64,000 bases of DNA from Pelagomonas calceolata (lineage: Eukaryota > Sar > Pelagophyceae > Pelagomonadales > Pelagomonadaceae), in the NCBI GenBank assembly GCA_918797485.1, contig CAKKNE010000006.1:2914001-2978000 (forward strand), given 5' to 3'. The translations under genes and the position numbers were made by a program. Under the pieces are notes generated by a model that saw only the letters and a list, made by a program, of their open reading frames with translations, made no database searches and was not told the origin of the DNA. Positions 31,133-55,550 of this stretch are shown piece after piece (positions within the stretch are counted from its first letter, which is position 1; each line of letters starts with the position of its first letter).

Positions 31133-33364
31133 TCACCACCCGTTCGCCGCGTGGTGCCGCAGCATGCGGTCGAAGGCCGACCGCGCCTCGTGCACAGTAT
31201 ACTCCTGGAGCGGGTCGCGGCAGTAGCGGCGCTGGAGGTCGACGCGCAGCGGCCCCGAGCGCCCGCCCGGCCCCGTGGCCGTGCGTATCAATTGCGACGT
31301 CGTGTCGAGGAAGTTCGCGAACACCGTGTGCAGGATCGCCTCGACGTTTAAGGACGGGTTCCACGACCCGGGCGATCCGGAAGTTGTCAAAGCTTCGATG
31401 CAGATGGCCCCGCCGGCGGTCACGTGGCCCGTGTACCAGCAGAAGCGCGGCGAGACGCAGCGCAGGAAGAACGGCCGCGTCGGGTAATCCGAGGGAAACG
31501 TGATCTCCATGCGGATCGGAACGCGCAGCTGCGCCAGGTCTCCGTTGAGATCACGGCCAGCCGGGCAGTCACCGTCGAAGTCCGCGACGGAAAAGCGCCA
31601 CGTAGTCGCCGCGTCGCCGACGAGTTCCAGATCATGAACGCGCGGGGCCGACGCCCACTTCCGCAACGACTGGAACTCGCTCATGATGCGAGGAACCCCG
31701 GTCTTGCCCAGCCACTTCGGCGGCGCGCCCGGGGGACCTTGAGTCCGCTGGGCCTTCGCGGGCGGCAGCTCCGGCGGCGGGGGCGGCTCCGTTCGCGGCG
31801 CGGGCGTCACGGGCCGCCGCGCACTTTTCAAGGCGTCGACGCGCGCCCGGACTTCCCGATCAAACGCCGGCGCGAGCGTGTTCTCGCCAGCCGCGTCGCG
31901 CGCCTGCAGGGCCTCCCCCCGATACACGAACAGGAACCGCGTCGCGACCGCGTCCTCGTCGGGGACCACCCAGATGTTGGCACTCTTGGTAATTCCAGGA
32001 ACTTCAGCCACCTCGCACAACGCAATAATCCTCAGGTCCGGCGACCCGAAGAAGGAATCGTTGAACTGCGGCGTCTCGGGTTCCGGAGCCGCGGCGCCGG
32101 CGCGTCCCGGAAGCGCGCCGCGGTGCTGGCGCCGGGCGGACATGGCGTAGCGAATAGAATACGACAGAGACGTCGAGACATACACGCCAGCCCCGTGCGC
32201 GGCGCCGTGGAGCTGCAATTTCGTGCCCGACGCCGACCGCAGGCCGGATCGCAAGATACAATGCCAATTTTCGGCCGGCGAGCCGTGCCACGCGAACTTG
32301 CTGCCGTGCCGCGCCTTCAAAGCCGCGAACCTAGCTTGCCTCGCCGGCGGCTGGCTCAACATAATAAACTGGCGGCACGTTGCTTCCGGCGCGATGCGCT
32401 CGAGCAACCGCATATTCGGCGGCAGCGCAACCAAATGAGCCTTGTTCGACGTCATGATCCAGCGCAGGGCCGCCGGCGCTTGCTTATCGACCTTGAGCAA
32501 AGCGCCCTCCACCGCCGCGAAGCCGGCGGCCGACTGGCCGTCGTTCCGCGCCGTCTCGTGGATGCGCTCGAAGGACGGGAAGCGGTCCAAAATCTTCGCC
32601 GCGGCGGCCGCGCCGACGCTCGTGCCGTCGAGGACGCAGGGCGGCTGCAGGATGTCCGCCGCGCGCCGCGACCGCGCGGCGAGCCGAGTCGTCGCGACGA
32701 GCAGGTCGAGGACGTCGGCGCGGGCCGCGAGGCACGTCGCGCCGACGAGCAGCTTCCCAAAGGTCTCGAGCTGGTGGGCACACAGGGGCCGCCCGCATAC
32801 CGACGGCAGGATCGAGGCTTCTCCGAACGCTAGAGGGGCATCACATATTGCACAGACGTCCGCTAAGGAGCCCATTCTCTGATTTGCGTAGGCGAGCGTT
32901 GCGTAAAGCAAGCCCTCGGTATCTCGTTGTCGTTTGTGCAGGGGCGAGCGCCAAAAAGCCTCCAGCAGCCGTTCGACCTGCCGCCCGACGATGCAGCCTT
33001 CGGGGGCCGTGACTGTGATGCCAGCGTCGCAGTAGCCGGACGCGTACTGCGTCGCGCCACCCGAGAACACGAGCTTTGCGGAGAGCGGCGCGGTCAATCC
33101 CCAAGCTTGCCGTGTCTCCGCCGAGGCTTGCGACCGCGTCGGATCAATTTTGAGGGTCACGATGAGCGTCCGGCTCCCCTTCGTCGTCGACCGCTCCGCG
33201 CTCTCGTCGCCGAAGCGCGCGCAACACCGGGCGACGTCGACGTCGAGCTGGTCGCCGGCGTCGGCTACCGGGTCGGTCGACGCTTCGGATTCGTACGCGT
33301 AGTCATCTTCGGACTCCTCTGCTTCGTCATCGCTGGCGCTGCGGAGGTCCTCGACGTCGGCCAT
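31133..33364 (-). CDS. PARP catalytic domain fused to an E2 ubiquitin-conjugating (UBC) domain
   Basis: A 743-residue protein with ATG at 33364. An acidic N-terminus precedes a helical region. The ADP-ribosyltransferase core at about 300-470 shows KFAWHGSPAENW (NAD-contacting HG), GAGVYVSTSLSYS (Tyr) and a late strand ALCEVAEVP with Glu at the third position of the H-Y-E triad. This is nearest to PARP6/PARP8. After a Pro-rich linker, about 570-735 is a UBC fold of the UBE2Q type: ITFPSDYPTRPFFLRCVSPRF, then GGAICIEALTTSG with the likely active Cys. The HPN motif is missing, as in UBE2Q. The fusion would couple ADP-ribosylation with ubiquitin transfer; similar PARP-UBC fusions are known in other eukaryotes. 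Confidence 0.85.
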   Translation of the reverse strand: MADVEDLRSASDDEAEESEDDYAYESEASTDPVADAGDQLDVDVARCCARFGDESAERSTTKGSRTLIVTLKIDPTRSQASAETRQAWGLTAPLSAKLVFSGGATQYASGYCDAGITVTAPEGCIVGRQVERLLEAFWRSPLHKRQRDTEGLLYATLAYANQRMGSLADVCAICDAPLAFGEASILPSVCGRPLCAHQLETFGKLLVGATCLAARADVLDLLVATTRLAARSRRAADILQPPCVLDGTSVGAAAAAKILDRFPSFERIHETARNDGQSAAGFAAVEGALLKVDKQAPAALRWIMTSNKAHLVALPPNMRLLERIAPEATCRQFIMLSQPPARQARFAALKARHGSKFAWHGSPAENWHCILRSGLRSASGTKLQLHGAAHGAGVYVSTSLSYSIRYAMSARRQHRGALPGRAGAAAPEPETPQFNDSFFGSPDLRIIALCEVAEVPGITKSANIWVVPDEDAVATRFLFVYRGEALQARDAAGENTLAPAFDREVRARVDALKSARRPVTPAPRTEPPPPPELPPAKAQRTQGPPGAPPKWLGKTGVPRIMSEFQSLRKWASAPRVHDLELVGDAATTWRFSVADFDGDCPAGRDLNGDLAQLRVPIRMEITFPSDYPTRPFFLRCVSPRFCWYTGHVTAGGAICIEALTTSGSPGSWNPSLNVEAILHTVFANFLDTTSQLIRTATGPGGRSGPLRVDLQRRYCRDPLQEYTVHEARSAFDRMLRHHAANGW

Positions 33365-34394: not shown

Positions 34395-37300
34395 TTACTC
34401 GACGGCTGGCCGGGGCGGCGTCGTGCCGGGTTCCGCGTACCTTTGGCGTCTAGCCGCCTCCATTTGGCGCGCGCGTGACGGGGCCGGCGGCGGCGAAGCC
34501 GCGAGGCTTGCAGCGCGGCGCCGCTCCTCGGCCGCCGCGGTGAGGCGCGACGCCGCGAGCGCCCGATTTTCGTCGTTGCTCGCCTGGTCCGCCCGGACGT
34601 GCCGGACGATATCCGTGAATGTCGGCCGCGTCGCGGCGTCGTTCGCCCACGCCCGGCGCATGACGGTGGCGAGCGGTCCGGGCATCGCCGGCGGCACTGG
34701 CGGGCGCGCGTGCTCGAACACGACCTTGAAGCTAATTTGGAGCGGCTTGTGGCCCGCCCAGGGCACGCCTCCGTCGAAAAGTTCCCACAGCACCATGGCG
34801 TACGAGTAGACGTCGCTCTTCTCCGTGAACACGTTATCCTTGAGGAGCTCGGGAGCCATGAAAGACGGTGTCCCTGAGAGCCCGTCGCCGTTCTTTGTGG
34901 TCAGCGTCGTCGCCGTCTTGAGCGCGTCGCAGCGGCTGAGCCCAAAATCCGACACTTTTGCCCTCGCTTCCTTGGTCAGGAGGCAGTTGTGGCTCTTCAG
35001 GTCTCGATGCTGCACGCCGCACGAGTACAGGAATTGCATGCCCTGCGCGACATCTGCGGCCCAGAGGCACTTCAGATCGGCCCCCACCTCCGCTGTCCCG
35101 TCGAGTGCCTCACGGATGGATCCACCGGGCATGAATTCCATGACGAGGCCGAGGAACGAAGAGTCCGTCGTGACGACGCCCAGCACCGCAACCGTCCGCG
35201 GCGAGCGGAGACGGATCATGATCGAAAGCTCCTGCGCGAACTGGGAGATCATTTGCTGGCGCTTAACCGCGGTCAGCGACGCCAGCGATATCTTCTTGAG
35301 GGCCACGGCCTCGCCCATGTACTCGCCTTGATACACGTCGCCTTGCGCGCCGCACGCCACCGGCTCTGCCGCGACGCGGTCGAGCGTCAGCTCGTGGCTG
35401 ACCAGGTTGGTTCGTTTGAGAGAGCGAGCCGACTCCTTCCGCGTCTTTTTCGCCATCGACGCGCCGAGAGCAGCGACCTCTTCCTTGATGCTGTCGAGCC
35501 TGGCGCCGTCGCGTTGCACTCTCGCCTCGACGGCGTTGATGCGCCGCTCGCCGCTCTGTGCGGCGGCCACGATGAATTTCTCGTTGCGTCGCGCCCCGGC
35601 CTGGACCGCAGCCAAAAGCGTCGCGTCTCGCCGCGTGCTCGACGCGACTGCCCCCGAGACATAGTCGAGCTGCGCAGTGGTGCGTTGCGCCCTCGCTTCT
35701 GCAGCGACTAGCAGCTCCTCGTCACGACGCGCGCTCGCGCGGACGGCCGCGAGTATCGTGGCGAGCTGCTGTTCGTTGCTCCGATCTCGTAGCATTTTCT
35801 TCAGTTGCTTGTCCACTTTGGCGAAGCCCTCCCTGACTTCGAGTCGGAACTCGCCGAGCTCGCTCGTCAATTCGTCGACCGGCACGTGGGCTTCTATGGC
35901 GACGGACGTGATCGCGACGGGATCCTCCGCGAGGCTCCGCGCCGCAGCTTCCGCGGTTTCGCCGGTCTCGCGAACGCGCGCCTTGACGAGCTGGTCGATA
36001 GAACGCTCGATCTGGTACGTGTGTTCCATGAGTCGCGCGTCCGCCGCGAGGCGGTATAAATCGCGAAACGAGTCCATGGCCTGACAGATCTCCTTGTCGA
36101 GGCGGCCCAGCGACCTGACGTGGCCTTGCATCGTGAAGGCGCGCTTGAGCCAGCCCTTCTTCCCAAACGTTCGCATTGCATCGTTGAACTCGACGAGCAG
36201 ATTCACGAGGTGTCGCATCTTCGACTCGACGAGCGCCCTCTCGTCCTCGAGGCGGGCGACATTCTTCGCCATCAAGTGGGCCGCGTCGAGCACGTCGCAG
36301 ACGCGCTTCGCCGCAATCAGGACGTCATCCGCCATGTCGCCGAACTCCACCGCCGAACCGAGGCAGCCTTTGACGGCCCTGCAGAGCTCCCCGACGAGAG
36401 GGAGACCGCTACCCGCGGAGAGCAGGGCGTTCGCGAGCGTGAGGCCGTGCTGCACGACCGTCGACGTGTCCTTGTGACGGGCGAGCATCGCGGAGCGGCC
36501 ATCGCCTGACTCGTCCCCGAGCTCCACGTCGACGCCACTGCGGGTCATCTGTTTCGTATTGGACCCTTTGCTGCGGCGGTAGAAGAAAAATGCAGCCGCG
36601 GCCAGCAGCAGCACGGCGCCCGCGGCGGCACCGCCACCGGCGACCATCACGCTGTTGTCTTTTCTGCCGCCGGAGCTCTCTGCTGTCTCGGTTGTAGCGA
36701 GCGCGCTGGCGAACGTGGGGCGCGGCGTCGGTGCGGAGACGGTCTTGACCGTGGGGTTGCCGGGTGTCGCCGTCGGGGCAGTTGTCGGGTGTAACGATGG
36801 TCGAGGCACCGGCATCGGCGTCGGCGCGCCGTCGACCGCGGTCGCTGCCATGATCGTGTCGTAGTCATTCGCGGCCGCCGGCGCCGTTGGCCCCACGGCG
36901 CCCTCGGCGTCGGCCGCGGTGGCAAGCGCCGTGTACAAGGCGCCGCTCTGGGCCGCGGTCGACAGATCGCTGACGACCGCCTCGGCGTAGCCCGTTGCCA
37001 TCTCCGCGCTGCCCTCGACGCGAACGGAAAACACTACCGTGGTCGTGGTCTGCTGCAGGCGCCGTCGTCGCGACGATACGACGCTAAACGCCACAATTTG
37101 GTCGGTGCTCGTGACGTAGGAGAGCGTCGCGACGAGCGCAGTCTTGACGATGGTCTCGAGCGTCGTGGCATCCACGGTCACTTCCGCAAGGACCAGCTGA
37201 GAATTAATCACGACTGACTCCGCCGTCGGCGACAGCGCCGGTGTGGCCGTTGGTACCGGATTCAAGAACTCACCGGAGGTCGGCGCCGGCGCCGGCTGAG

Positions 37301-38591
37301 ATGTTGGCGCATTTGCATCGAAGACGTAGGCCGCGCCCGAGCCGCTGCTGTAGTATTGTTCGGCCCCGACCACGATGGTGGTGCCGTCAATCGCCACGGA
37401 GAAGCCGAAGCCGAAGCCGTCGTCCGCCGCGGCGTCGGAAGCCGTCAGCTTGGCCACCTGGTCGTACGTGGCGCCGCCGTCGCTCGTGCGGTAGACGTAG
37501 GCCGCGCCCGAGCCGTCGTTGTAATATTGGTGGGCCCCAATCACGATGGTGTCACCGTCAATCGCCACGGAGCGGCCGAAGTAGTCGTACGCCGCAGCGT
37601 CGCTGGCCGTCAGCTTGGCCAGTTCGACGTACGTGGCGCCGCCGTCGGTTGTGCGGAAGACGTAGGCCGAGCCCGAGCTGGTGCCGGCGTCGTCGTCTTG
37701 CCGGGCCCCGACCACGACGGTGCCGCCGTCGATTGCCACGGAGTAGCCGAAGTTGTCGTACGCCGCAGCGTCGGAGGCCGTCAGCTTGATCTTCGTGTGC
37801 GTGATCCAGCCGTCGGTCGTGCGGAAGACGTAGACCGCGCCCGATCGGCCGGTGTGATATTGGTAGGCCCCGACCACGATGGTGTCACCGTTAATGGCCA
37901 CGGAAATGCCGAAGTAGTCGTCCTCCGCGGCATCGCTAGCCGTCAGCTTGGCCAGTTCGACGTACGTGGCGCCGCCGTCGCTCGTGAGGAAGACGTAGGC
38001 CGAACCCGGGCCATTCCATTCATAGGCTCCGACCACAATAGTGCCGCCGTCGATCGCCACGGAGTAGCCGAACTGGTCACTCTCCGCGGCGTCGGAGGCC
38101 GTCAGCTTGGCCACCTGAGCGTACGTGGCGCCGCCGTCGGTCGTGCGGAAGACGTAGGCTGCGCCCGAGCCTGTACCGTCGTCGTCGTCGTAGGGGGCTC
38201 CAATCACGATTGTGTCGCCGGAAATTGCCACGGACCAGCCGAACTGGTCACTCTCCGCGGCGTCGGAGGCCGTCAGCTTGGCCACCAGGCCGTACGTGAC
38301 GCCGCCGTCGCTCGTGCGGAAGACGTAGGCTGCGCCCGGGCCGCTGTTGTAGTACTGGTGGGCCCCAATCACGATGGTGTCACCGTCAATCGCCACGGAG
38401 CGGCCGAAGTGGTCGTCCGCCGCGGCGTCGCTGGCCACGAGCTTCGCGACCTCCCCGAAGTTGGTGGACAGCCGCCGATCAGCCCGCGCGACGAGCGGTG
38501 CTGTGAGGAGTGGCCCATTGCTAGGCTCAAGAACGCGCAGCCCGTGATGAGTGTGCAAGCTTACCAGCAGGCATAACTGGTAGCATCTCAT
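34395..38591 (-). CDS. Receptor-like kinase: seven FG-GAP blades, TM, MLKL-like helical bundle, coiled coil, TKL kinase
   Basis: A single exon of 1398 residues. A signal peptide (CYQLCLLVSLHTHHG) is followed by seven 55-60-residue FG-GAP units (residues about 45-420; consensus FG.SVAIDGDTIVIGA and GAAYVFRT), enough for one closed integrin-alpha-like propeller. A Thr/Pro/Ala-rich stalk and a domain with VDATTLETIVKTALVA follow. One TM lies at about 645-670 (AAGAVLLLAAAAFFFYRR). Inside the cell, about 715-850 (SAGSGLPLVGELCRAVKGCL, LVESKMRHLVNLLVEFNDAM) resembles the four-helix MLKL N-terminal/Cbl-like bundle; a coiled-coil brace (about 930-1050) follows. A complete TKL kinase comes last: VALKKI, HRDLKSHN, DFGLSR, GTPSFMAPELL, with all catalytic residues present. 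Confidence 0.85.
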   Translation of the reverse strand: MRCYQLCLLVSLHTHHGLRVLEPSNGPLLTAPLVARADRRLSTNFGEVAKLVASDAAADDHFGRSVAIDGDTIVIGAHQYYNSGPGAAYVFRTSDGGVTYGLVAKLTASDAAESDQFGWSVAISGDTIVIGAPYDDDDGTGSGAAYVFRTTDGGATYAQVAKLTASDAAESDQFGYSVAIDGGTIVVGAYEWNGPGSAYVFLTSDGGATYVELAKLTASDAAEDDYFGISVAINGDTIVVGAYQYHTGRSGAVYVFRTTDGWITHTKIKLTASDAAAYDNFGYSVAIDGGTVVVGARQDDDAGTSSGSAYVFRTTDGGATYVELAKLTASDAAAYDYFGRSVAIDGDTIVIGAHQYYNDGSGAAYVYRTSDGGATYDQVAKLTASDAAADDGFGFGFSVAIDGTTIVVGAEQYYSSGSGAAYVFDANAPTSQPAPAPTSGEFLNPVPTATPALSPTAESVVINSQLVLAEVTVDATTLETIVKTALVATLSYVTSTDQIVAFSVVSSRRRRLQQTTTTVVFSVRVEGSAEMATGYAEAVVSDLSTAAQSGALYTALATAADAEGAVGPTAPAAANDYDTIMAATAVDGAPTPMPVPRPSLHPTTAPTATPGNPTVKTVSAPTPRPTFASALATTETAESSGGRKDNSVMVAGGGAAAGAVLLLAAAAFFFYRRSKGSNTKQMTRSGVDVELGDESGDGRSAMLARHKDTSTVVQHGLTLANALLSAGSGLPLVGELCRAVKGCLGSAVEFGDMADDVLIAAKRVCDVLDAAHLMAKNVARLEDERALVESKMRHLVNLLVEFNDAMRTFGKKGWLKRAFTMQGHVRSLGRLDKEICQAMDSFRDLYRLAADARLMEHTYQIERSIDQLVKARVRETGETAEAAARSLAEDPVAITSVAIEAHVPVDELTSELGEFRLEVREGFAKVDKQLKKMLRDRSNEQQLATILAAVRASARRDEELLVAAEARAQRTTAQLDYVSGAVASSTRRDATLLAAVQAGARRNEKFIVAAAQSGERRINAVEARVQRDGARLDSIKEEVAALGASMAKKTRKESARSLKRTNLVSHELTLDRVAAEPVACGAQGDVYQGEYMGEAVALKKISLASLTAVKRQQMISQFAQELSIMIRLRSPRTVAVLGVVTTDSSFLGLVMEFMPGGSIREALDGTAEVGADLKCLWAADVAQGMQFLYSCGVQHRDLKSHNCLLTKEARAKVSDFGLSRCDALKTATTLTTKNGDGLSGTPSFMAPELLKDNVFTEKSDVYSYAMVLWELFDGGVPWAGHKPLQISFKVVFEHARPPVPPAMPGPLATVMRRAWANDAATRPTFTDIVRHVRADQASNDENRALAASRLTAAAEERRRAASLAASPPPAPSRARQMEAARRQRYAEPGTTPPRPAVE
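37310..38470 (-). repeat. Tandem FG-GAP coding repeats, seven units
   Basis: Seven units of about 165-180 bp encode the extracellular propeller of the receptor-like kinase. Adjacent units share long near-identical DNA tracts, and the same tracts recur in the separate gene at 52810-54180. Confidence 0.85.
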
Positions 38592-38798: not shown

Positions 38799-41700
38799 TC
38801 ACACCCACAGCGTCAGCCCGCACCAGTGCCGCCCCAGCGACGCCGGGTCCGTCGCGAGGTCGACGAGGACCCTGACCTGGTCCTCGACACTCAACGTCGC
38901 CTGGTGGCGCAAGGCGTGGCGGGCGCTGTTCTCCAAGCCGGCGACGACGGTCCGCGCGCGCTGGGCCATGTCCGCCTCGAGCATCGGGTTCCCCGCGACC
39001 TCGCGGCTCAATAAGTGGCAGGGGTTCGCCCCGAAGAGTTTCCCGCGCGCCGTCGCGACGCGCCGCTCGGGCGCCGCCGCGGCGCCCGCCTCGACGTCGT
39101 CCGCGTCCCTATCTAAAGACGCGTCGTGCTTCGCGCCCCGTAACCAGTCGAGCACGGGCTCCCGCACGAACGCCTCCAACAAGCCGAGGAGAGGCGCCCG
39201 CGCCCGCGGCTGCCGCAGCGTCCTGAATGTAGACTCGAGATGAGACGTGAGGACGCGCCGCGCGCCCACGGGCTCGAGGGGCGCTTCCAACTCCCGCGTC
39301 AACCGGAACGGAATCAACTCCGGCACGGGCAGCAGCGCCCCCGTCCCAAACGAGTAGCCCAGATCGATGTGCACGAGCGCGCCGTCGCCACTTAATAGGA
39401 AGTTGTCCAAATGGCGGTCGCCCAGACCAACAACATAACCGGCAGCACACGTCGCCGCCAGGGAATACGCGTAGGTCCGCCGCTTCGCGAGGAACGCCTC
39501 CGATGAGACAGACAGCTTTTCCAGATGGCGTTTCAAACCACCAGACGTCGCGTCGAGCACCTTGCGCGCGGCGAAGAGAGCTTGAGATGCTTCTTGCGGC
39601 TTGGCCCTTAGTCTCTTCTTCGTGAACGCCTTCGACGCCTTGTCCGGGGCTCCTAATAACATATCATCCCTTGAACGCTGCGCCCGGATCCACAAAGCCT
39701 CGCCCTTCGTGCTGTCGCCCATTCCAAATTCTCTGAGTAATATAGACTTGACGGGCGGCGACGCGGGCACCCATTCCACCAAACCAACCCTAGGAGATAA
39801 CGGCGCGACGGCGTACGTCCGCAGTGCCGCACCAACACCGCGGCAAGACCCTTTCAGAGTGGTAGAGATGGCCTCGAACAAAGCCTCGACGCGGGCGTCG
39901 TTCCGCAGATCTTCCCCACCTTTGACGAGGAAATTTAATCTGCGGGCGTCGGTCGCGTGCACCGACAATTTTTTAGGAACCTGTTTCGATGGTAAAATGT
40001 CCAAAGACGGCTCGAAGCCCGCTACGACACCACCGGGCACCTCTAACAACGACCGGGCGCCGTCGAAGTCGCGCAGCCAGCCCGAGTACCTGTCGAGGGG
40101 ACACGTCGGCCTCACGGACTTCTTTGGTTGTTTTGCTAGATCTTGTCTTAGACCGTCCAAGCCTTTCGCTAGCTTCGTGTGGTCGTCCGTCGAGAACAAA
40201 GCGTCGGCCTTCTTCCTCAAAGATCTCACAAATGCTTCCCGAACAAACGCTTCGTTCCTGGAACCGATGCCCGTACCCACGAGAGGCCACTCGTCACCCA
40301 GCGTCGTCTTCTTGAGTCTAGACCAGGCCGCCCGCGCTCTTACCAAATCACCATTCCGAGCGGCCTTGCGCGCCACATCTAAACCTTCCGCGAGGCGTTT
40401 CTCGGGCTCGTGCAGCCCCTCGCACGCCAGCACGAACGCCTCCGCAATATCATCTCTACAAGCGTCGCGGGCCGCTCTTATGAGCGTCGCGTCCGTCAAT
40501 TTCTCGGAAGCGAAGCGCAGCGCGTCCCTTACTGACGATGGAGAAGAGCGCGCCAAGCGCTCGACGACGGGCCTTACGGCTTCGCAGATCGCTTTGGCTC
40601 TCGCATCGTTCGAATCACCATAAGCTGATAATAACGCGACGAGCTGGTCGCCGTGGTCTTTGAAGGAGGCGGAAGGCGCGTCCTCCGCGGCCGCCCGGAA
40701 CGCCGCGGCGCAAGCTTCGGCGTGAGGACTTCCCAACAAAGCGAGCACTCTCGGAATGGCTCTTGAAGCGTAGGACGCATCTAGCGCCGTCGCTCTGATA
40801 TAAGTCTCGACAGCAGACGCGGCGCACCGTTGCGTCGCCGTCGACGCGCTGCCGCCACCTGCTAGTTTAGCCAGGTCGCACACGACCTCCTTGGCCTGGC
40901 GCCGTCGTTTCGTCGGCTGGTCCTCATCCTCCTCATCCTTGGAAAGGCGGTCTCGGCGCAGCATCTCGTCGCACAAATCCGCAAAGGCGAAAAACGCCTC
41001 CGCGCTCGACACTTGAATCGCCGCAGTTCTCAGGTCGTGGGCCGCATTGTTCGCTAATTCTACGGGTGTCGCATCGCCCTCGGAACACTTCCCCGCATAA
41101 CGGGCGTCGGCCCACTCCAGCGCCAACGCGCCTCGCCTCACTAGATTCCGTTCCACTTTATAAGCCACGGCGAAGACCTTGTCGCATTTCTCGGGCTCGT
41201 TGCTCGCACAGTAATCCCTAGCTAGAGCTAACGTGTAGTCGGCCTTGAGCTGGTCGGCGCCTTGCGGGGCGGTACTGAAGAAGGCATTTTTGCGGAGACA
41301 CTGCGTCGCCACGTCTGTTATTGATGCATTCAGTGCTAAGGACGCGATATCCAGCCTTGTCAAATCTAAAACGGCCTCTAACGCTTGGTCGCTTTGGGCT
41401 AGTACTTTTCGCGTACATAACGACGCGACCCAGGAACTACAGGGCGCGTCCGCGGGCGGCTTGGGTGACGTGCGCCACCTTTCTCCAGCACCGCTGGATG
41501 GGGGCCGCGCGACGGCGTCGACGTCACCCAATATGCTTAAATCGGCGACGCACTTCGCCAATGCAGTACCTTGCGACAGGGACGCCAGCGCCTCCGCTAC
41601 TTGTTCAAAACCAGCGTCGACGGCCTCCGCCGCGCCCGCACGATCACCATCTCGTAGTAAACGTATAGCTACTGAAGCGGGCGCCTTCCTCAGCAATTCG

Positions 41701-44700
41701 GCCCGCGTCTCAGGCTTTTTGAGCTGCACCCTTAGTTTTTCCTCGACGTCGTCGTCGTCAATTAACGCACCGGCGAGAGCCAACGAACCCGGATCACTCG
41801 CCATTCGAGCCACGTCGTCCCACTCGCCTAAAGCTTTCGCCGCGTCGAGCTGCCGCTCCTTGTCATCCTCAAAAGCGGCAAACGCTTCTCTTAAACGCCC
41901 CGCCCGCAACAGTGACGCGCCCTCATTATCGTCCAGTGACGCGTTGATGTCCTCGTCGACCTTCGCGTAGAGTGACGCTAAAGCGCTTTTTGTAGGCGTA
42001 TCTAGCGGCAGGGCTCTCGCTTTGCGCGCCCAGGGCCCTTTCGTCGAGGAACCTGTGAGTGCACACAAGCGGGCCTTTTCGATCGTCAGAACGCCCGGTT
42101 CCAACGCGTTCGACGCTAACGCCGTTGAAGCTATTGATGTAGAGGGCACTAAGACCGCAGGGTCTTCACTTTTCTCTGATGCATCGATGCAGGCAGCATG
42201 GGCTTGATGGAGAGCGCTCCCTAATTCATGAGTGGGACTCTCCTCGCACGACCGCAAAGCGTTCTCCAGACCCACGACGACTCGTCGACGCGTAGCCAGC
42301 GGTCTAGCGTTGTAAAGTGTCCCAACGAGCTGCCCGAACAGCGACGCCGCTATTGATCCATCCCGTAACGACAAGGCCATCAATGGCCGGACCACCTCCG
42401 CCAACGACAGCCCCACGTTGGGCAACTCGCCCTGGGCATACGACCGGTACATGACGACCTTCTGCCGCGCTGGTTTCTTCTTTTTTGATACAGTATCTTC
42501 CGCAAACCGCACCGTACGTGCTGCAAGCCTACGCGACAGCTGGGCCTCGTCTTCTAGCACGTCGCCCGTCGTCTTCGGAGGGACGACATGGTCAGCAGCG
42601 AACAACAACTGCGTCTGCAGGCGCACTTGCCTTCCCTGGGCCCTTGGATCATCTTCGTCGACCTGAGTCGCATCGTATAAAGAATCTTTCTGTGTGGCCT
42701 TCACGGGACCAGAACCGAACATTTGGGTCGATAACGAGCTACACCGTTGGGACTTGGCGTTCTCCACGACGGAAAAGGCGTTTACGAGCGAGGACCCTTT
42801 CCCTTCGAGGTCCAGCTGCAGGTCGCAGCCCTTGTCGCCGCCCAGATCGTCACAGAGCGGCTGGTTCCAACTCGGGGAAGATGATGATGAAGCTAATAAC
42901 AAAAATGCGGCGAATCTATGGGGCCTCGCATCGGGCGCGATGAACATCTCCCCGAGAGCACCATCCAGCCTCGACTGCGCCGTCTCACCTAAACGACTAC
43001 GCCAGTAGTCGTAGACCCTTCTACGAACGCCCTTCCTCTGTTCCACCACTTGTTCTTTCTCCGCGTCCACGTCGATAACTTCCGGTGGTGGCGGCGGGTT
43101 CGGATCTCGCTCGAGCATGACCACGTCCTCGTCCGGCGTCTCTTGGACCGGTGGAGGCGGCTCTTCCTCCTCCACAACAGCTTCGTCCTTGGGCGCGTCG
43201 AGCATGCCCTCGCCGTCTTGATCTCCTAGACCTCTGATTAACGCTGCTCGCACTCGTAATGCCGTGGGATTCTCATTTTTCGAGTGTGAAGTAGGAAAGT
43301 AGACGTCGTGCAATGCTGCTAGGAGATCGTAGCCCAACGATCTTACCTGCACGTCTGGTGATGCCGCAAGTAGAGCTTCGAGCGACGCGGGCCCGCCGTG
43401 GACCACTGAAGCCACTAACTGCTCGTTCCTAGACAAAGCTTCACTTCTACTCACGAGCAATTGCAAAGCTCCGAGCTGCACTAATGGTTTGGCGGTCTTC
43501 GTATCTTCCTGAGAATCATCATCAAGAGGCAGCTCCGGCGTCACGCGTTCACTATTGGCCAAGGCCTTCGGCAAGATGCCTTCGAGCTGCTGCAGCAACT
43601 CGTCGTCGGAAGAAAAGCATTCGGAAGACACACCGCCCACGTCCAGCGCCCGCAGCAGCTCGAACGCTTGTTTTGCCGACTTGCCCTCGTGCACTATTTC
43701 ATTTAAACTCCTACAACTTCGTAAAGCGTGGCGCCGCGACAGGAACGTAGGCACGGCCAACGTACACCTCGACACGAGCGACGCGAAGCGCCCGTGGCGG
43801 TGGTGCGAGCCCGCTTTACTTGTATCTGTGACGTCTTCTACGGTGTCCTTGCACTTGCGTAGCAGCGCATCGAGCGACGTCGCTTTCAGAGCTGCGGCGA
43901 GGACCTCGCCGGCGGCCTTGTATAACGTGGCGTGCCTTACTTTGGCGCACTCTACCACGAGTTCTAAAGTCTTGGGCGCCTCTGGGAGTAGATTCGGTCT
44001 TAAGGTTAGTATGGCGTTGACGAGGGACAATCCAGCTAATCGAGGCACCAGGTTCTTGGCCAACAGAGTTTTAGATCCACCTAGATCTTTGGGCGGCGTC
44101 AGGAGCTTGTTGATCGGTCGGCTCCAGTCGAAAAGTTCCCCATCGAACAATGTTGTGGAGTAGGCTGTGAGTAGAGCGTTGCACAAGGCTAGGTTCCGCT
44201 TTGTTGTGTCCTTATTACTACCAGGGTTCGTCGGGCCTCTATCAGTAAAGTGGGGGTCGTTTTCTTTGGAGTAGGACACATTTGCACAAAGCGTCTCCGC
44301 GATCCTTGCGATGGCTGGCGCTTCCTCTTCTGTAATGGGTGGCGCGTTCCGCTTGTCCGGTGACGTACATACGAGGAAGCGGCACGCGCTTCGTAGCAAA
44401 TGATCAATACCTTGAGTTGGTTCGGCACATAACGCTCGAGCGGTCGCTTGCGCGACAGACTTTCGTAAACACATGGCGTGCGTCCTTAAAGCTCGTCTTA
44501 AGCCACCTTTGCTCTCGACGAAGACGTTCAACACCAAGGCGAGCAAATAGATACAAGTGTCGCCTTCCGACCGATCCAAATGAGACGCTAATACTTCCGC
44601 GGACTTAGGTGTAGAGTGTTCCTTGCGCCGTACCGACGCTGGACTTGCACCTGTGGCCTTGGCGGCGTTCCTAGCGTCCACCAATGCTTTGGCCTCCAGT

Positions 44701-47700
44701 CGGGCCAATTTAGCAAGACCAGCAACTAACGGAGCCATCAGAGCCGTGCGATTGAGGGGATGCGCCACGATCTCGATGGCCTCCTCGTGATCATCGTCAT
44801 CTGAATCGTCCGTGTCCTCCTCGAGCAAGGCCGGATCCCCCGCGTCGACGTCCCACAAGGAAGCTTCTACCGGAGGCACGGCCTCGACGTCCTCCAAATC
44901 TTCTTCTTCCTCTCTAGTAGAGAAGGCGTCCTCCTCCTCGTGATCATCGATTTGCGACGCCTCCAAGCCTAATGAAGAGTGCCGCAGCATGGTCCTCGCG
45001 AATTGAGATAATCCCGCGTCTTCGTCTTCACAATTTTTTTCGACCACGTTCGCTCTCATACAACCGATGCGGTCGCGTCGCATGCTTAATTTACGTTGAT
45101 GACCTCGTGCCGTCGTCATGCTCTCGAAGCCGCAGCCCACGGTCAAGGTGATAGCGTCTGGCTGGAGAGCTAATAGTAACGTCTCTTGCCGCTCCGGAGC
45201 CAGCACGATCTTGTTTAGATGGAGCGGGTTGTCCTGCGACGCCTCGGCTAACACTACCGCTAGCCTATAAGCACTCTTCACGACTCTGGGCGAGACGTCA
45301 GTAGTACTTTTTAGTTTCGAGACCCAAAGGCGCAAAACGCGCTTCCGCAGGGCCTTCGCGTCTTGCCCATAAGCGCTTAGTACTGAAGAAGAAGCGTCGT
45401 CCATGACGCAGTCCTCGAGACCACCTCGTGACAACCCAGGAAGCGCGTCGAAGGCCTGTTCCAAGATGCATGCTGCAGTTTCACCAGTCGCGACCTCTAC
45501 TTGAGAAGCATTCGTCTCTAACGACTTCTCGAGCGCCGTCAAGGCCAAGGACACGACGGGTCTTGATGAAATACCATCGTTACTATCTCTGATACTTTTA
45601 AGGAAGACGCTTAGCGTACGGCCGTCGAAGCGTTTTAGTGACGGCACTAAGCCGTACTCACAGATGAAGCGGCAGACGTCGGGCCACTGCTTCGATTTAC
45701 GATTCAATGAGTTTTGTGGAGCCTTCTTCCCGAGCAGCCCGCAGTGCGCCGCTAAATCGTCTAGAAAAGCTACTGATGACTCTTGGTCGTGATCATATGA
45801 AGACTGTGCAGAACCGACGGCCGCCGCCCGCAACCCTCTCCTGATTGATCTACCGAGCGTGTCCTTGAGAGCCGGGATTCTCCTCGAGAGTAGAGCTAGC
45901 AGTCGCGGCGCGCCGCAGGACCCGTAGGCCGCGCCCAACGCCGAGGCGTCGTTCCGGGCGCGGCTTTTACTAGGTTCATCAAATTCGTTCGAGGCCCAGT
46001 CTTCAAAGCGAGCGGGTAGGGTCCTCGCCAGGCGCGCGTCTAAAGCTTTGAGGACCTCCGCGTCGTCCTCTATACAAATTTCATCGTCTTCCTCAAAGGC
46101 GTCGGTCTCGTCGCCGTCGTTCGTCCGTTTACGTCTACCGGGGGCGTTCCTCGTCAGCCCTCCGACGAAGTGCGGCACTAATCGAATGGCCTTGTCGGCC
46201 GCGGCGTCGTCGTTACTTGCTAGAGCGTCTACGACACAGGTCCGCGCTTGGTTCCGCGCCTCCAGTCGCTTCTGTCTCCCTCGAAAGCCAGCACCCAACA
46301 ATCTTGTAGCCAGGCCTAGTTTCTGCGACGTCGGCCACGCATCCGCATTTACGGTGAGTAGAGGCGCCGCGAGGGCCGCTCGACTAATCCCTCTAGTTCG
46401 CGCCCAGTCGCCACAGGCGACGACGAAGGGCGCCTGTCCCGCGCGACATAGCTTTTCAGCAGTATCAGACCAATCTTCGGATAATGTACCCGTACCATTG
46501 CACACGAGCGCCTCATACACCGCCTCGGGATGCCGGTCGCACGCCTCACCGGTCTTCAAATCTTTGATGACCAGAGGGAGCAAGCCCGGCGCTTCCGGTT
46601 CACCCAACAACGGCAGACCCATGGCTACGGCCAATCTCAGAGCGCCGTCGTCCTCGTCGTCGTCGTCGTCGAGACCCTCGAAGAAGTTCCTCGCGAGGAG
46701 TCGTGCAATATCTTCTGACGGTGCCGCTTGGTCGAGAGCATCTGTTTTGTGGAGAGCGTCGTACAACCTCAACGCGCCGTCCCGCCTCCGTTGCGCCGCT
46801 CGCGACGGTGTCGACAGTCGCGCCTCCTCGGTGTCTTCTCGGGACGACGAATGCGTCGGCTCCGAGCCTTCGGAGTCTACGGACCAGTGCGGCGCCAAGG
46901 CTTGGAGTGACGTGGCGATGGCCTTCCTTGTTAAATGTATCGGACACCTTTTCAGCAGTTTCGCGACTGATAGCGGTAACTGTGTACGTACCTCGACGTC
47001 GTCCTGCGACGACGGCAAGGCGCCTCGCCGATCCGGTGATACAATAGCATCCACGAAGATGCGTAACAGGTCGTAGAGGCCCGACTGTGCTACTATATCT
47101 TCGTCGAGTTGTGAGGCGAGGTCGCAGGAGTGTCTCAGAGCGTCCCTCCTCAAGATGCGCCGTCGTTCTTCACACACCTCGTCGTCGTCGTCGATCATGG
47201 CACTCCCTCGCTGCCTTGAACCGACATGTTGTACTAATTGTATAGAAATAGCAAGGGCGTCCGCCGCCCACGCCCCATCGATCACTTCAGCCTTAAGGAA
47301 GGACCCGACGGCGTGCACGCAAGCGACGGCCTTCGCTAATGATTCCGAGTCGTCGCAGTCGACTGGGGTTTGAGGCCAGAGCACTTTTTTCGCACTCGGA
47401 GCGTCGGGCAGCTTCTGCCGGTAAAAGGAACCGAGGTCGCCACTTACGAGCGGCGCCAACTTAGCGAGCGTGTACCACGTCCTCCTTCTACAAGCGTCGT
47501 CGGGGTGGGCCGCGCTCGCCATGAGCTCGTCGCATAGAACGCCTATCGAGGCCGGAGGCGCCCTATTGCCAACGGTAGCATCCATTAACTTCGCGTCGTC
47601 CCGCTTTCTCGCAACATGATGTCTAATACCTTCCGCGAGGCGATCCGCCGCCGCGGACGCCGCGCGCGTGGCTGCCGCGCCGGGTCCACCCGAAGAAGAC

Positions 47701-50700
47701 GTCTCGACCGCTTGTAGTGAAGCTCTGAGTAAATGCAGGCCGAACCTCGATAAAATAAGGGAATGAGCCCGCACATGTCTCGCCAACTTCCCGAGCGCCA
47801 ACGCGGCGCCTAATCTTCTGGTAGCATCTCTCTGCGTGAGGTCGAACGCGACCCTTCGCAGCACATGGGCCAAAGCATCAAACCCCTTGCCCGTCGCAAC
47901 ACCACTCATTTCTTCCCGCACTTCGGCCGGTCGCATCTGTTTACACGTCCAATTGACGAACTCCGCGAGGGCCTCGGCGGCTTGTGCTCGTTTCGATGCC
48001 TGGTGGCCAGCTAGCGCTTCGAACAACGCGTCTACGAGGTAGCGCGCCGCCCTCGTCTTCTCGTTCTGTTCCCGGCAGTCCCTATTTGAGAATAATCTAC
48101 AACATTGTAATAACAACTCCCGGAATAGAGCTCGTATGATCGAATCTGAGTGTGATGCTAGACTACAGACGTAGGGCCAAACGCGGACATAGATCGAGTC
48201 TTCGAGGTTCGCACCTTTGCCGTGCTGGTTGGGATGGGACGTCGTCCTCCCAATAGCTACTAGGACGAGGGCGTGCAACGCTTCCGATGCTAGTAAGCGC
48301 GTCTGGCGCGGTCCCGAGCCGCACGCTATGACCCCTAAACGATTCAGTAAGGCACCATCCAATCGCAGCGATAGCGTCCCCAGAGATATAGTTAAAGGAG
48401 CGCCGAGCATTCTAGAAGATTCAGTTCTTTGGGAGAACGCTCTCACTGCTTCCCCGCCACAAGAAGATAAAAAGCGGACGGCCCTTCTAGATAAGTAACG
48501 AGCGGCACTATCAGAGACGTGCGGGTCCGCTCTTTGTGCAGCGAGCGCCATTCGTCGAGCGCGAGCGCGCGCTTGCGCACTTTGGGCCTTGTCGATCACT
48601 ACACTAACGTCTCTGGACCGAGCCGCGACGGCGTACCTCCCGATTTCCGGCAGCACCTTCTCCAACACGTCCTCGGTGAAGAACTCATCGCTAGCATCGT
48701 CGCGCCACGTCACCACGGCATCAAACGCTCTGGAAGCTGTGGGTCGGTGCGCACTACCTAGCCGCAACGCGGCACCAAGCGCCGGCGCCAACACAGCTAG
48801 CTGGCCCGTCCGCACCTCTAGAGGCGCTGACAGTACGACTCGACAGGCACACTCGAGCAACTCGTCGCGAAAGTCGCCAACCCTATGAGCCGTGTCCCGC
48901 GCGAATTTCCTCGCTGATCTTAGGAATGCGTCCTCGTCGCCCGGCGTCAAGGAGCATTGCGTGCCCGCTCGGATAGCCAACGCACCCAACCGATACAGTG
49001 AAGAACACCTTTCATGTTTCGACGCGCGATCGACCACGACTCGCAATAGCTGTGAAGCCCAGGGCGCAAACGAATCTCCTGTATCTGCGACGAAGGTCTC
49101 CAGAAAGGAAGCTAAATTAATGAGGAGCTCCTGGTCGAACTCGTTTTTTGGCCTGTGTGGCACGGACGCCGTCGCGAGACGCGTAGACTCTCATGTGATA
49201 CCGCGTCAGGTTCAAGTTCATTTTTCACGCTGAGTCAGCACCGCATCTCGTCCTCCAACATTCGCTCTTCGTATCTCAAATCTAATCGCCGGAGGATCTC
49301 CAATGAGGCGCTTAGTAGAGCATCATACAACACGTCGGACTGGGACGAGGCGATGACGTCGCGCCAGAGCTGCGCGCACCTTCTAAAAACGGGCGGTAGC
49401 GTTGAGTCTTCATCCGGCCGTTTATGCTGTATGGACGCGACCTGTACCGCGTCCCTGCAGACGACTCTGAGTGACGCGCGGCCGCCTTTCAATGCTGAAC
49501 AAGCTTTGACTAGGGATGCTAAACCGTCGACGAGGTACTGCCTCGCTCGCGCGTTCTCCCCATACAACGCACATTGGTCCGCGTGCGCGCCCACGCACCT
49601 TCGAGCTCGTTGGGCGAGAGCTTGTAAAGCTGCTCTCGGTCGCTCTGTCTGATGAGAAGTAACGAGTGAGGAAGACGCATGGAGCGCCGCACTACGAACT
49701 TGTAAAGCGTCCCAGTGCGCGAGCCTCCGTCGGACCTTGTCCATTTCACCTTGCAGAGCTAGGTCCTTGTCTCGCCGCTCGTTGTCCTGCGCATCACAGG
49801 CATCGGCACAAGCGTTGGCCGCCTCCATGAGCCTTGCGTAATCTACGGACGAGGCGGGCGCCGCCGCCGCGATGCTACGTAACGAAGCCGCCCGCACTTT
49901 CGGGTTCACGTCCCGACAGCCCGCGTCGAGCAACGCAAACACGGGGCTCCAGTCACCTCGTTGTTGTAGAGCCAAGGCATGTAACGTTTCGAAGAGAGCC
50001 ATCGACGCGTGTTTCGCGACGAGCTTCGGCGGACCTTCCTTCATGTCGGGATGGACCGTGGCCGCGAAGTGGAGGGGTTCATATGAAGTCATCGGTTCTG
50101 AAGGCAGCGACGGTGCCAGTAGGGACGCCCTTCTACGGAGAAACCGCAGCGCCTTGGCGGGCGCCTCGTACCGCGTGAACACTTTTTGGAACGGCACGGC
50201 GTACCTTTCTAGGAGCGTCAGGATGGCAGGGGCGCCTATCTCTGCCGCTTGTGAAGCCCACGCGTCGTTGCCACACAAGTGCTCCAATGCGGCCAATGTA
50301 GAGCCGGAATCTTTACCGGTGTCCTTCTGGAGGTCCAACTTGCATATCCGTAGGAGGGACGCGCCCTGCTCGTCCCAGGGGGATGAGGACCGGTCGTCGA
50401 TCGCTAATGGAGGCGCCGGCCGCTCTGATGCGATGAGCGTCGCCGCGAGCTTCATGGCCTCGCCTTTAATACCCTTGGCCTTTTCTCCTGATAAAGAATC
50501 GACGCACTTGTGGGACAAAGAGCGCCACTGCTCGCCACTTACAACTCTCTCAGCATCCCTCTTGAAGAGCTCTCTGAGAGCACTCGCCGCGGCCTGCCGC
50601 GCCGTCGCGTGGCCCCGGCCCTCCAATACCAAGCGTAGGGACTCGAACGCCGTCAGGGTGTGGGGCCCGGCGCCTCTTTTCTTGATGTACTTGGCCATCT

Positions 50701-52809: not shown

Positions 52810-54180
52810 CTAAGCGAGGATGGCGGCAAGCACGGCCGCGGCGGCGGTGAGGATCGTGGCGGAGGGGAGCCTCCTCGTCGCAGCAGCATCGGAAGAAAAA
52901 TAGTCCCACCAACTCGACTCGTCCTCGAAGACGTAGACCGAGCCCGAGTTCGAGTAGGTGCCGGCGTCGTCGTCGCCGTAGGCCCCGACCACGATGGTGC
53001 CGCCGGCGATCGCCACGGAGCCGCCGAACTGGTCGCTCGCCGCGGCGTCAGCAGCCGTCAGCTTGGCCACCTGGTCGTACGAGGCGCCGCTGTCGCTCGT
53101 GCGGAAGACGTAAGCCGAGCCCGATTTGGAGCCGGCGTCGTCATCGCCGTCGGCCCCGACCACGATGGTGTTGCCGTCGATCGCCACGGAGCGGCCGAAG
53201 TAGTCGTTCGACGCGGCGTCGCTTGCCGTCAGCTTGGCCACCTCGACGTACGTGGTGCCGTCGTCGGTCGTGAGGAAGACGTAGGCTGAGCCCGAGCCGC
53301 TGCTGTAGTATTGGTCGGCCCCGACCACGATGGTGTTGCCGTCGATCGCCACGGAGCCGCCGAACTGGTCGATCGACGCGGCGTCGTCGGCCGTCAGCTT
53401 GGCCACCTCGACGTACGTGGCGCCGTCGGTCGTGCGGAAGACGTAGGCCGAGCCCGAGGCGGAGCCGCCGTCGTCATCGCCGTCGACCCCGACCACGATG
53501 GTGTCGCCAGCGATGGCCACGGAGATGCCGAACTGGTCGATCGCCGCGGCGTCGTCGGCCGTCAGCTTGGCCACCTCGACGTACGTGGCGCCGCCGTCGG
53601 TCGTGCGGAAGACGTAGACTGCGCCACCGGTGCCAGCACTGGATGCCCCAATCACGATTGTGGCGCCGTCAATCGCCACGGAGCTGCCAAATAAGTCGTT
53701 CGCCGCGGCGTCGCTGGCCGTCAGCTTGGCCACCTGGTCGTACGTGCCCCAGGTGCTCTTTTCGAAGACGTAGACCGAGCCCGAGTTGGAGCCGGCGTCG
53801 TCGTCGTTGGTGGCCCCGACAACGATAGTGCTGCCGTCGATCGCCACGGAGCTGCCAAATAAGTCGCCCGCCGCGGCGTCGCTGGCCGTCAGCTTGGCCA
53901 GCTCGGCGCCGTCGCTCGCTCGTAGGACGTAGACTGAGCCCGACCAGGAGCCAGCGTACGGGGCTCCGATCACGACGGTGTCGCCGTCGATGGCCACGGA
54001 GTATCCGAACTTGTCGCCCGCCGCGGCGTCGCTGGCTGCCATCTTCACACGCTCCGAAAAATCGTCGCTCAGCCGCCGATTCTTGCCCGCCTCCCTGCCC
54101 CGCCGCCTCGCGCGGGCGTCCAGCAGGCCCCACGCATGGGGGGCCGCAGCTGCGAGGCAAATAAAGGCGAATGCGTGCAT
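52810..54180 (-). CDS. Secreted seven-blade FG-GAP protein, possibly GPI-anchored
   Basis: 456 residues from the ATG at 54180, which opens a clean signal peptide (MHAFAFICLAAAAPHAWG); the longer open frame to 54951 is antisense-like Arg-rich sequence. Seven FG-GAP units follow (consensus ASDAA..D.FG.SVAIDG.TIVVGA and GSAYVFRTTDG), matching a single seven-bladed propeller. The C-terminus has a small polar segment and ends in a hydrophobic tail ATILTAAAAVLAAILA with no cytoplasmic residues, as in GPI-anchor signals. It is thus a kinase-less version of the ectodomain of the receptor-like kinase at 34395-38591. It could be a cell-surface adhesin, co-receptor or decoy; function is inferred. Confidence 0.8.
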   Translation of the reverse strand: MHAFAFICLAAAAPHAWGLLDARARRRGREAGKNRRLSDDFSERVKMAASDAAAGDKFGYSVAIDGDTVVIGAPYAGSWSGSVYVLRASDGAELAKLTASDAAAGDLFGSSVAIDGSTIVVGATNDDDAGSNSGSVYVFEKSTWGTYDQVAKLTASDAAANDLFGSSVAIDGATIVIGASSAGTGGAVYVFRTTDGGATYVEVAKLTADDAAAIDQFGISVAIAGDTIVVGVDGDDDGGSASGSAYVFRTTDGATYVEVAKLTADDAASIDQFGGSVAIDGNTIVVGADQYYSSGSGSAYVFLTTDDGTTYVEVAKLTASDAASNDYFGRSVAIDGNTIVVGADGDDDAGSKSGSAYVFRTSDSGASYDQVAKLTAADAAASDQFGGSVAIAGGTIVVGAYGDDDAGTYSNSGSVYVFEDESSWWDYFSSDAAATRRLPSATILTAAAAVLAAILA

Positions 54181-54284
54181 TGTTGGGCTGCCCGACGCGA
54201 GCAGCACCCGCGTCCGCTTCTTCTGCTCGGGTCCGGGTCGGGGCGAGGTGGCCGGCGAATCGCGACGCGCGGAAACACACACAC

Positions 54285-55550
54285 TCACGTTACGACGGCA
54301 TACGCGTCCGAGCCGACGCTTGGTACACGGTGGCGGCGACGCGACGCCCGCACCTGCGCCGCCGCGAGCCGCGTCTCGCCGAAGCCGACGACGCCCCGCC
54401 GCGGGCCCGGCGCGTAGTCGTGCACGCCGCACGGTCGCGTCGACGCGTTCCGCCGCAGGTCGTTCACCATGACCGCGAGGCTCGACGTCCGCGCGGGCGA
54501 CTGGACGAACGCGTCGGCCAGGACGCACGTCGCGACGTCCAAGACGACGCGCTCCGACGCCTCGTCCCTTTGCTTGCCTGGTTGCCGCGCGAACCGCGCC
54601 CGGCGGCGCCACTCTTCTATATTCACGCCGAAGCGGGCGTCGTCGTGACCCCCGACGAAGGCGCAGCGCTCGCCGCCGCCGTCGCACAGTTCGAAAAGTT
54701 CGTCGACGGCTTTGGATCGGGACCGCAGCTTCCGGATGTCTCCGAGAGGCATGTCCGAGGCCAGGTAGACCGCCGGCGCGTCGCGACGCGTCCGCAGGTG
54801 CCGTACCAATGCAGCGACGGCGTGGTCCAGGAACAGGACGTAGGTCGCCGTCTCTCCTTTTCCAGTCCTCACATGAGCACACACAATGGGCCGCTTCACG
54901 TGCCGTCTCATATGAACCGTCGCGTCGCGCAGCGCGGGGTGCAGCGCCCACGCGGCGCGCGCCGCCTCGCGGCCGCAGCCCCTCAAATCACAAGCCGGCC
55001 GCACGGCCTCGAGATCCAAGCCGCGGCTCCCGCCCAGGGCCCGCCCTAAATTCAGGATGATTGGATTCGAGGGGAGTTTAGCGGTGATGTTCGCCGCGGT
55101 CCAGCCCCGCGTCATGCTCCCGCAGAAGGGGACCGGGGCCACGCTCAGCGACGCCGCCTCGTCCACAAATTTTAAACCGGTCGCCTCGAACCTGGCGAGG
55201 TCGAGGACGCGGCGCCACGACGCGTGGCCGCTCCGCCGGAACTGCGCGTAGGCCCGGTCGGCCTTGGCCTGCACGTCGTTAACGAGCTTACTAGCACTCA
55301 AACGAGTGCACTTCTGGTCGGCGTACGAGGCCGACAGGCGCCCGTGCGGGAGGATGGGCGGGAGGATCAGCGCCCGGTCCGCCGCGCGGCTGACCCAGAC
55401 CGCCGTCTTGAGGTTGTAGTACTGGTTGCCGAGGCCGCCCGTCGCGGCGAAGGCGAGGTAGCGCTTCCGCCGGACGGCGGGGCAGGGCTTCGCTGCCGTG
55501 CTTACGATGCTACACAGGCACCATGCCTTGTATGATCGATGGCGCCGCAT
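54285..55550 (-). CDS. O-fucosyltransferase-like glycosyltransferase (GT65/GT68-like fold)
   Basis: 421 residues from the ATG at 55550. A short hydrophobic stretch (YKAWCLCSIVSTA) near the N-terminus can act as a Golgi/ER signal anchor. AATGGLGNQYYNLKTAVWVS and RALILPPILPH match the first GDP-fucose-binding region of protein O-fucosyltransferases (GGLxNQxxxxxxA). IVCAHVRTGK corresponds to the catalytic HxRR-type strand with the conserved Arg, and CVLADAFVQSPARTSSLAVM to the C-terminal FxGxxxSSFS region. Extra Cys pairs suggest a lumenal location. The donor is probably GDP-fucose; the acceptor is unknown. It lies tail-to-head with the FG-GAP surface protein, which could be a glycosylation client, though nothing shows that. 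Confidence 0.7.
   Translation of the reverse strand: MRRHRSYKAWCLCSIVSTAAKPCPAVRRKRYLAFAATGGLGNQYYNLKTAVWVSRAADRALILPPILPHGRLSASYADQKCTRLSASKLVNDVQAKADRAYAQFRRSGHASWRRVLDLARFEATGLKFVDEAASLSVAPVPFCGSMTRGWTAANITAKLPSNPIILNLGRALGGSRGLDLEAVRPACDLRGCGREAARAAWALHPALRDATVHMRRHVKRPIVCAHVRTGKGETATYVLFLDHAVAALVRHLRTRRDAPAVYLASDMPLGDIRKLRSRSKAVDELFELCDGGGERCAFVGGHDDARFGVNIEEWRRRARFARQPGKQRDEASERVVLDVATCVLADAFVQSPARTSSLAVMVNDLRRNASTRPCGVHDYAPGPRRGVVGFGETRLAAAQVRASRRRHRVPSVGSDAYAVVT

Follow-up and report, generated by a model that had tools for sequence, protein, structure and literature searches.

We analyzed a 64,000-nucleotide window of the genome of the pelagophyte alga Pelagomonas calceolata (contig CAKKNE010000006.1, positions 2,914,001 to 2,978,000; window coordinates below all refer to the minus strand) and found in it a gene (34395..38591) for a 1398-residue receptor kinase with an integrin alpha-like FG-GAP propeller outside the cell and a helical bundle of the HeLo/MLKL_N type inside. 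The layout, in which the propeller is followed by a transmembrane (TM) helix, the bundle, a long coil and lastly a kinase whose motifs are intact, is either directly visible or well supported. We propose, with a probability just above one half (about 0.52), that this protein and its paralogs are receptor kinases using the bundle as an oligomerizing, membrane-proximal signal module. The bundle itself is probably homologous to the N-terminal domain of MLKL, as judged from sequence comparisons among its relatives.

The open reading frame (ORF) of the gene runs from 38591 down to 34395 over 1398 codons with no internal stop, and hydropathy places one hydrophobic segment near residues 646-673 (36573..36656), which bears out the single exon and the TM helix claimed in an earlier note on this DNA. 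With an ectodomain, a single TM segment and a cytoplasmic kinase bearing catalytic motifs, the protein has what defines a receptor-like kinase. Pfam finds FG-GAP_2 in seven stretches (E = 2.3e-123), the repeats spanning residues 46-428 (37308..38456), and AlphaFold2 predicts 28 strands (7 x 4) for residues 28-645, placed within model residues 19-398, with predicted local distance difference test (pLDDT) values mostly of 70-94 over the propeller strands and low values after model residue 398. A Foldseek comparison of this model with the PDB put integrin entries in the top 26 rows (best E = 5.9e-13); propellers of the sialidase, kelch and WD40 types appeared from about 4e-9 onward. The strand count and the integrin rows therefore support a seven-bladed, integrin-like ectodomain in the model, as the note had it; the likeness is one of fold and does not imply binding of integrin ligands. 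The kinase domain (residues 1076-1331, 34599..35366) matches Pfam PF07714 (PK_Tyr_Ser-Thr, E = 3.7e-52) and keeps the glycine loop, ALKK, HRDLK (as HRDLKSHN), DFG and APE, and is thus not a pseudokinase of the animal MLKL type. The note's active TKL kinase holds as to the motifs, and the domain appears TKL-like from its best sequence relatives (in the PDB an EGFR entry, then CTR1 and TNNI3K), on which the family label rests. Scanned as a whole against NCBIfam, the protein returned mostly remote kinase models, none of which reached its own cut-off.

To describe the inner part, residues 690-1064 were modeled from a 21-row alignment (21 of the 31 available proteins; P0012-P0015, P0017-P0019 and P0021-P0023 were omitted for their closeness to P0011 and P0016). 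The model is all helix (pLDDT 74.5, predicted template modeling score 0.43) and contains a bundle at residues 698-876 (35964..36500; helices at 698-725, 733-749, 755-776, 778-811 and 814-876), after which come short helices and, at 940-1063 (35403..35774), a coil of 124 residues. The earlier note had described a four-helix segment at 715-850, a coiled-coil brace and the intracellular order of MLKL. The segment does come out as a helix bundle, and the part that aligns with MLKL structures lies at about 729-851 and is preceded by an additional helix; the coil is present, and what had been called a brace is really a group of short helices together with a single, very long coil; the order of bundle, helical connector and kinase stands, with the difference that the bundle is internal, behind the TM helix, and that the connector is the long coil. 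The MLKL resemblance was likewise retained in altered form, since the route from this bundle to MLKL runs via its relatives and not via the window sequence itself.

We obtained those relatives by a bundle search of the genome, which returned 12 rows at 10 loci (subfamily A), and by running the Pfam MLKL_N model over the whole genome, which returned eight places, two in subfamily A and six in a second group (subfamily B), three of them above the cut-off (27.5-27.8 bits). Each of the eight is followed, on its own strand and within about 0.8 kb, by a kinase domain; the same model run over 14 control genomes gave one match, with none over the cut-off. Rescanned as whole ORFs, the four places that were fetched scored 20.1-24.2 bits. 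The subfamily-A paralog L039 matches Pfam MLKL_N at 17.5 bits (E = 0.003, cut-off 27). With each bundle scanned separately at E <= 1, MLKL_N was matched by 9/9 subfamily-B rows (best E = 8e-7) and by 7/12 subfamily-A rows (best E = 9.1e-4, below the family cut-off). Here the subfamily-A alignment comprised nine of the ten own-genome bundles (L039, split over two ORFs, was left out) with slices of P0002, P0005 and P0024; the subfamily-B alignment comprised nine of 16 nonredundant slices, excluding P0052 (frameshifted-looking) and P0055, P0057 and P0058 (partial), as well as P0035, P0045 and P0048 solely for brevity. The two profiles align with each other by hhalign over 78 columns (probability 81%, E = 1.2e-5, score 42.2), a score reached by none of 400 shuffled profiles (best 24.0 in 200 column shuffles and 30.7 in 200 block shuffles), the reversed alignment scoring 15.5; a weaker comparison with fewer rows (37.6%, E = 3.4e-4) is superseded by these fuller profiles. 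Against the PDB, the nine-row subfamily-B profile matched six sequences at E <= 10, all of them MLKL (best E = 0.044), singly weak but pure, which supersedes the two irrelevant matches of a four-row profile. An initial profile extending over whole kinases was discarded; the 60 rows listed for it were kinase matches.

At least 16 genes with such bundles are present in P. calceolata, whose genome as analyzed comprises 32.4 Mb in eight contigs (the published assembly has six nuclear, one plastid and one mitochondrial contig; PMC9481584), and a kinase was found in 15 of them; contig C3 carries four of the genes within a span of about 0.3 Mb, and one close relative is a UniRef protein of the same species. 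The locus-level analysis covered 14 loci, including four of the six in subfamily B, and a hydrophobic TM-like segment precedes the bundle in 11 of them: 8/10 in subfamily A (not L035 or L039) and 3/4 in subfamily B (not L044). Among the ten own-genome subfamily-A copies, bundle identity ranges from 43 to 92%. The outer parts differ by Pfam: FG-GAP in the window gene and L034, DUF285 in L034, L037, L038, L040 and L041, YHYH in L036, and none in L033. The bundles of L033 and L036 are 92% identical and those of L034 and L037 91%, yet their outer parts differ, and the two FG-GAP genes fall on different branches of the bundle comparison; these patterns are best explained by ectodomains being swapped between paralogs while the inner bundle was kept. 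At L041 (4123-7389, minus strand), a subfamily-A bundle stands behind a DUF285 ectodomain and TM segment, and the 10 kb fetched yielded no kinase.

Some members appear to lack the outer part altogether. In L035 the ORF opens with the bundle, and a stop lies nine codons ahead of its first Met; read in this way, the protein would be soluble and arranged like MLKL, with an upstream exon possible; the metagenomic proteins P0006, P0024 and P0028-P0030 resemble this layout. L035 (3246-5330, minus strand), L044 and P0039 are kinases whose bundles are of these same kinds, and WD-like repeats follow in part of the set; the kinases of L035 and L044 are of a different type, with DLG in place of DFG, and that of L035 also has HRDLHPGN in place of the usual HRDLK. 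A further protein, P0062 (433 aa), has no kinase domain by precomputed Pfam annotation, and its bundle matches MLKL_N at 28.2 bits, over the cut-off. Outside P. calceolata, subfamily B has relatives in Aureococcus anophagefferens, namely six proteins (P0049, P0050, P0054, P0056, P0057 and P0061) of which three have a DUF285 ectodomain. Among viral contigs, six stretches matched a pattern and none encodes a relative of P0003. The receptor-kinase family has so far been seen in pelagophyte algae, and its distribution may be wider, as each protein search scored only the roughly 8,000 candidates sharing most words.

We have proposed that the bundle acts as a signal module. Ligand binding would cluster the receptors, the coil and bundle would oligomerize just under the membrane, and the clustered kinases would phosphorylate in trans; the bundle would then be a regulated, oligomerizing and membrane-contacting element, and that of a receptor may seed soluble paralogs carrying the same bundle N-terminally. 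The strongest competitor, to which we give appreciably less weight, is that the bundle serves passively, as an adaptor or spacer comparable to the four-helix portion of the Cbl binding domain, in an ordinary adhesion or nutrient receptor kinase with no link to death. Its conservation among the ten paralogous copies and its reuse in soluble kinases suggest that it is more than a spacer. We consider it rather unlikely that the bundle is an executioner, activated by its own kinase to insert into the inner leaflet and cause a cation leak, with death or a calcium alarm as the outcome, in the manner of MLKL, CC-R and HeLo. Homology to MLKL_N favors such a role, as do the CC-R of NRG1.1, Rx-CC and NRC4, which stand beside MLKL in the structural list, and the wheat protein Pm13, in which an MLKL_N domain fused to a kinase gives resistance accompanied by cell death (PMC10951266). 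Against it, HeLo and CC-R domains are described as depending on their extreme N-terminal helix (PMC12881547), whereas the window bundle starts at residue 698 behind the TM helix; the bundle is also charge-neutral (25 K/R, 25 D/E) and of modest hydropathy (maximum 19-residue value 1.24). Since that helix is free in L035 and not in the receptor, we hypothesize, by analogy, that the soluble members would be the better executor candidates and the receptors the seeds; membrane attack or death by the bundle is possible. The earlier note's idea of a sensor tied to programmed death or self-recognition found no support in these data. An extension of this idea, which we regard as less probable still, is an all-in-one, necroptosis-like surveillance system of pelagophytes in which receptors with exchangeable ectodomains would carry an MLKL/HeLo-type bundle that, once a ligand is sensed, nucleates itself or soluble bundle-kinases (L035 being one) into assemblies active at the membrane, leading to calcium influx or death, for example against viruses.

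Several results weigh against descent of the bundle from a common ancestor with MLKL_N. The window bundle alone matches no Pfam family at E <= 1, the stretch 690-1060 matches no family over its cut-off, and the Pfam scan of the whole protein gives no MLKL_N match over the curated cut-off. In the alignment of four subfamily-B bundles, identity to the first is 89-99%, so the eight MLKL_N places, six of which belong to close paralogs, are not eight independent events. Three of the 12 subfamily-A rows match CCDC28 with a better E (best 2.3e-5) than the 9.1e-4 of MLKL_N (L040 and L041 reach 21 bits against a cut-off of 25.6), and the profile check for an unrelated family that the earlier note had named thus gave a mixed answer, with MLKL_N matched by most rows and this contrary signal beside it. 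Searched against the PDB, the subfamily-A profile gave five weak matches, vinculin first (E = 0.12) and none MLKL. Foldseek returned no match at E <= 0.001 for the bundle model, and designed bundles and gamma-tubulin complex proteins outscore MLKL in its list. That the bundle is unrelated to MLKL and shares with it only the likeness of any amphipathic helical bundle, which the missing window match, the CCDC28 rows and these structural scores would favor, is nevertheless the least likely of the readings considered, given that every genomic MLKL_N place lies upstream of a kinase, that no shuffled profile attains the score between the subfamilies and that the sequence and structure registers appear to agree.

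Two further parts of the receptor were annotated. Residues 1-20 (38532..38591) were judged by eye, with no predictor, to be a probable signal peptide. A juxtamembrane alpha/beta segment at residues 452-575 (36867..37238), seen in a low-confidence model and common to relatives, has RRRRLQ at residue 508; in many relatives with the segment (L037, L045, L046 and P0007 among them) RRR(R/H)L is shortly followed by GSVVV, which is absent from the window protein. We take the pair of motifs to resemble a furin site and a self-cleaving SEA motif. The segment is SEA-like by eye, and a SEA assignment stays no more than a lead, as Pfam SEA matched 0/5 rows and a PDB search gave one irrelevant match.

Elsewhere in the window, a second FG-GAP gene (52810-54951) lies 14 kb from the receptor gene and has seven similar repeats, no kinase in its ORF, an internal Met as its probable start and a hydrophobic C-terminal tail that by eye may be a glycosylphosphatidylinositol signal; it is possibly a co-receptor or decoy of the receptor. 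Adjoining the receptor gene on the same strand is a single ORF of 3454 aa (38799-49163) that looks by eye like a DNA-PK/PIKK-type kinase, and a 743-aa ORF (31133-33364) shows by eye a PARP-like catalytic stretch and a ubiquitin-conjugating-enzyme-like stretch.

In 2020, a survey that used Diamond to look for homologs of human sequences in 67 protists reported none for the mammalian necroptosis regulators, MLKL being one of those looked for, and concluded that the necroptosis pathway is likely exclusive to vertebrates (PMC7539657). Set against that survey, what is new here is a probable MLKL-type bundle inside algal membrane receptors with differing ectodomains; our literature search, which missed most subscription-journal papers, found no earlier description of such receptors. 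If the bundle is membrane-active, stramenopile algae would have a receptor-coupled HeLo module and, with it, a route, open to testing, that leads from sensing at the cell surface to the death of phytoplankton.

The window protein shares parts with several known systems. Like integrin alpha, it has a seven-bladed FG-GAP propeller outside a single TM helix; it alone has its own kinase inside, and Pfam (E <= 1) finds in it no thigh, calf or other integrin domain. The TM-bearing TKL kinases of Phytophthora infestans are likewise a large stramenopile set with varied outer parts, and the available portion of their description mentions neither an MLKL-type bundle nor an FG-GAP ectodomain (PMC3019232). 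With fungal HeLo/HELL and plant CC-R (RPW8) receptors it shares a bundle of the same superfamily and an "all-in-one" fusion of receptor and effector (PMC12881547), those receptors being nucleotide-binding leucine-rich repeat proteins whereas this one is a membrane receptor kinase; HELL domains are also mentioned in fungal proteins with kinase or pseudokinase domains (PMC12881547). With animal and plant MLKLs it shares the succession of an MLKL_N/HeLo-type bundle, a helical connector and a kinase. Its kinase motifs are intact, unlike those of animal MLKL, and in this it resembles Pm13, whose kinase keeps key catalytic residues (PMC10951266). It differs from MLKL in placing the bundle behind a TM helix and a large ectodomain and in holding the 124-residue coil in the connector, and the soluble paralog L035, whose ORF has the bundle at its N terminus, is closer to the MLKL layout than the receptor is.

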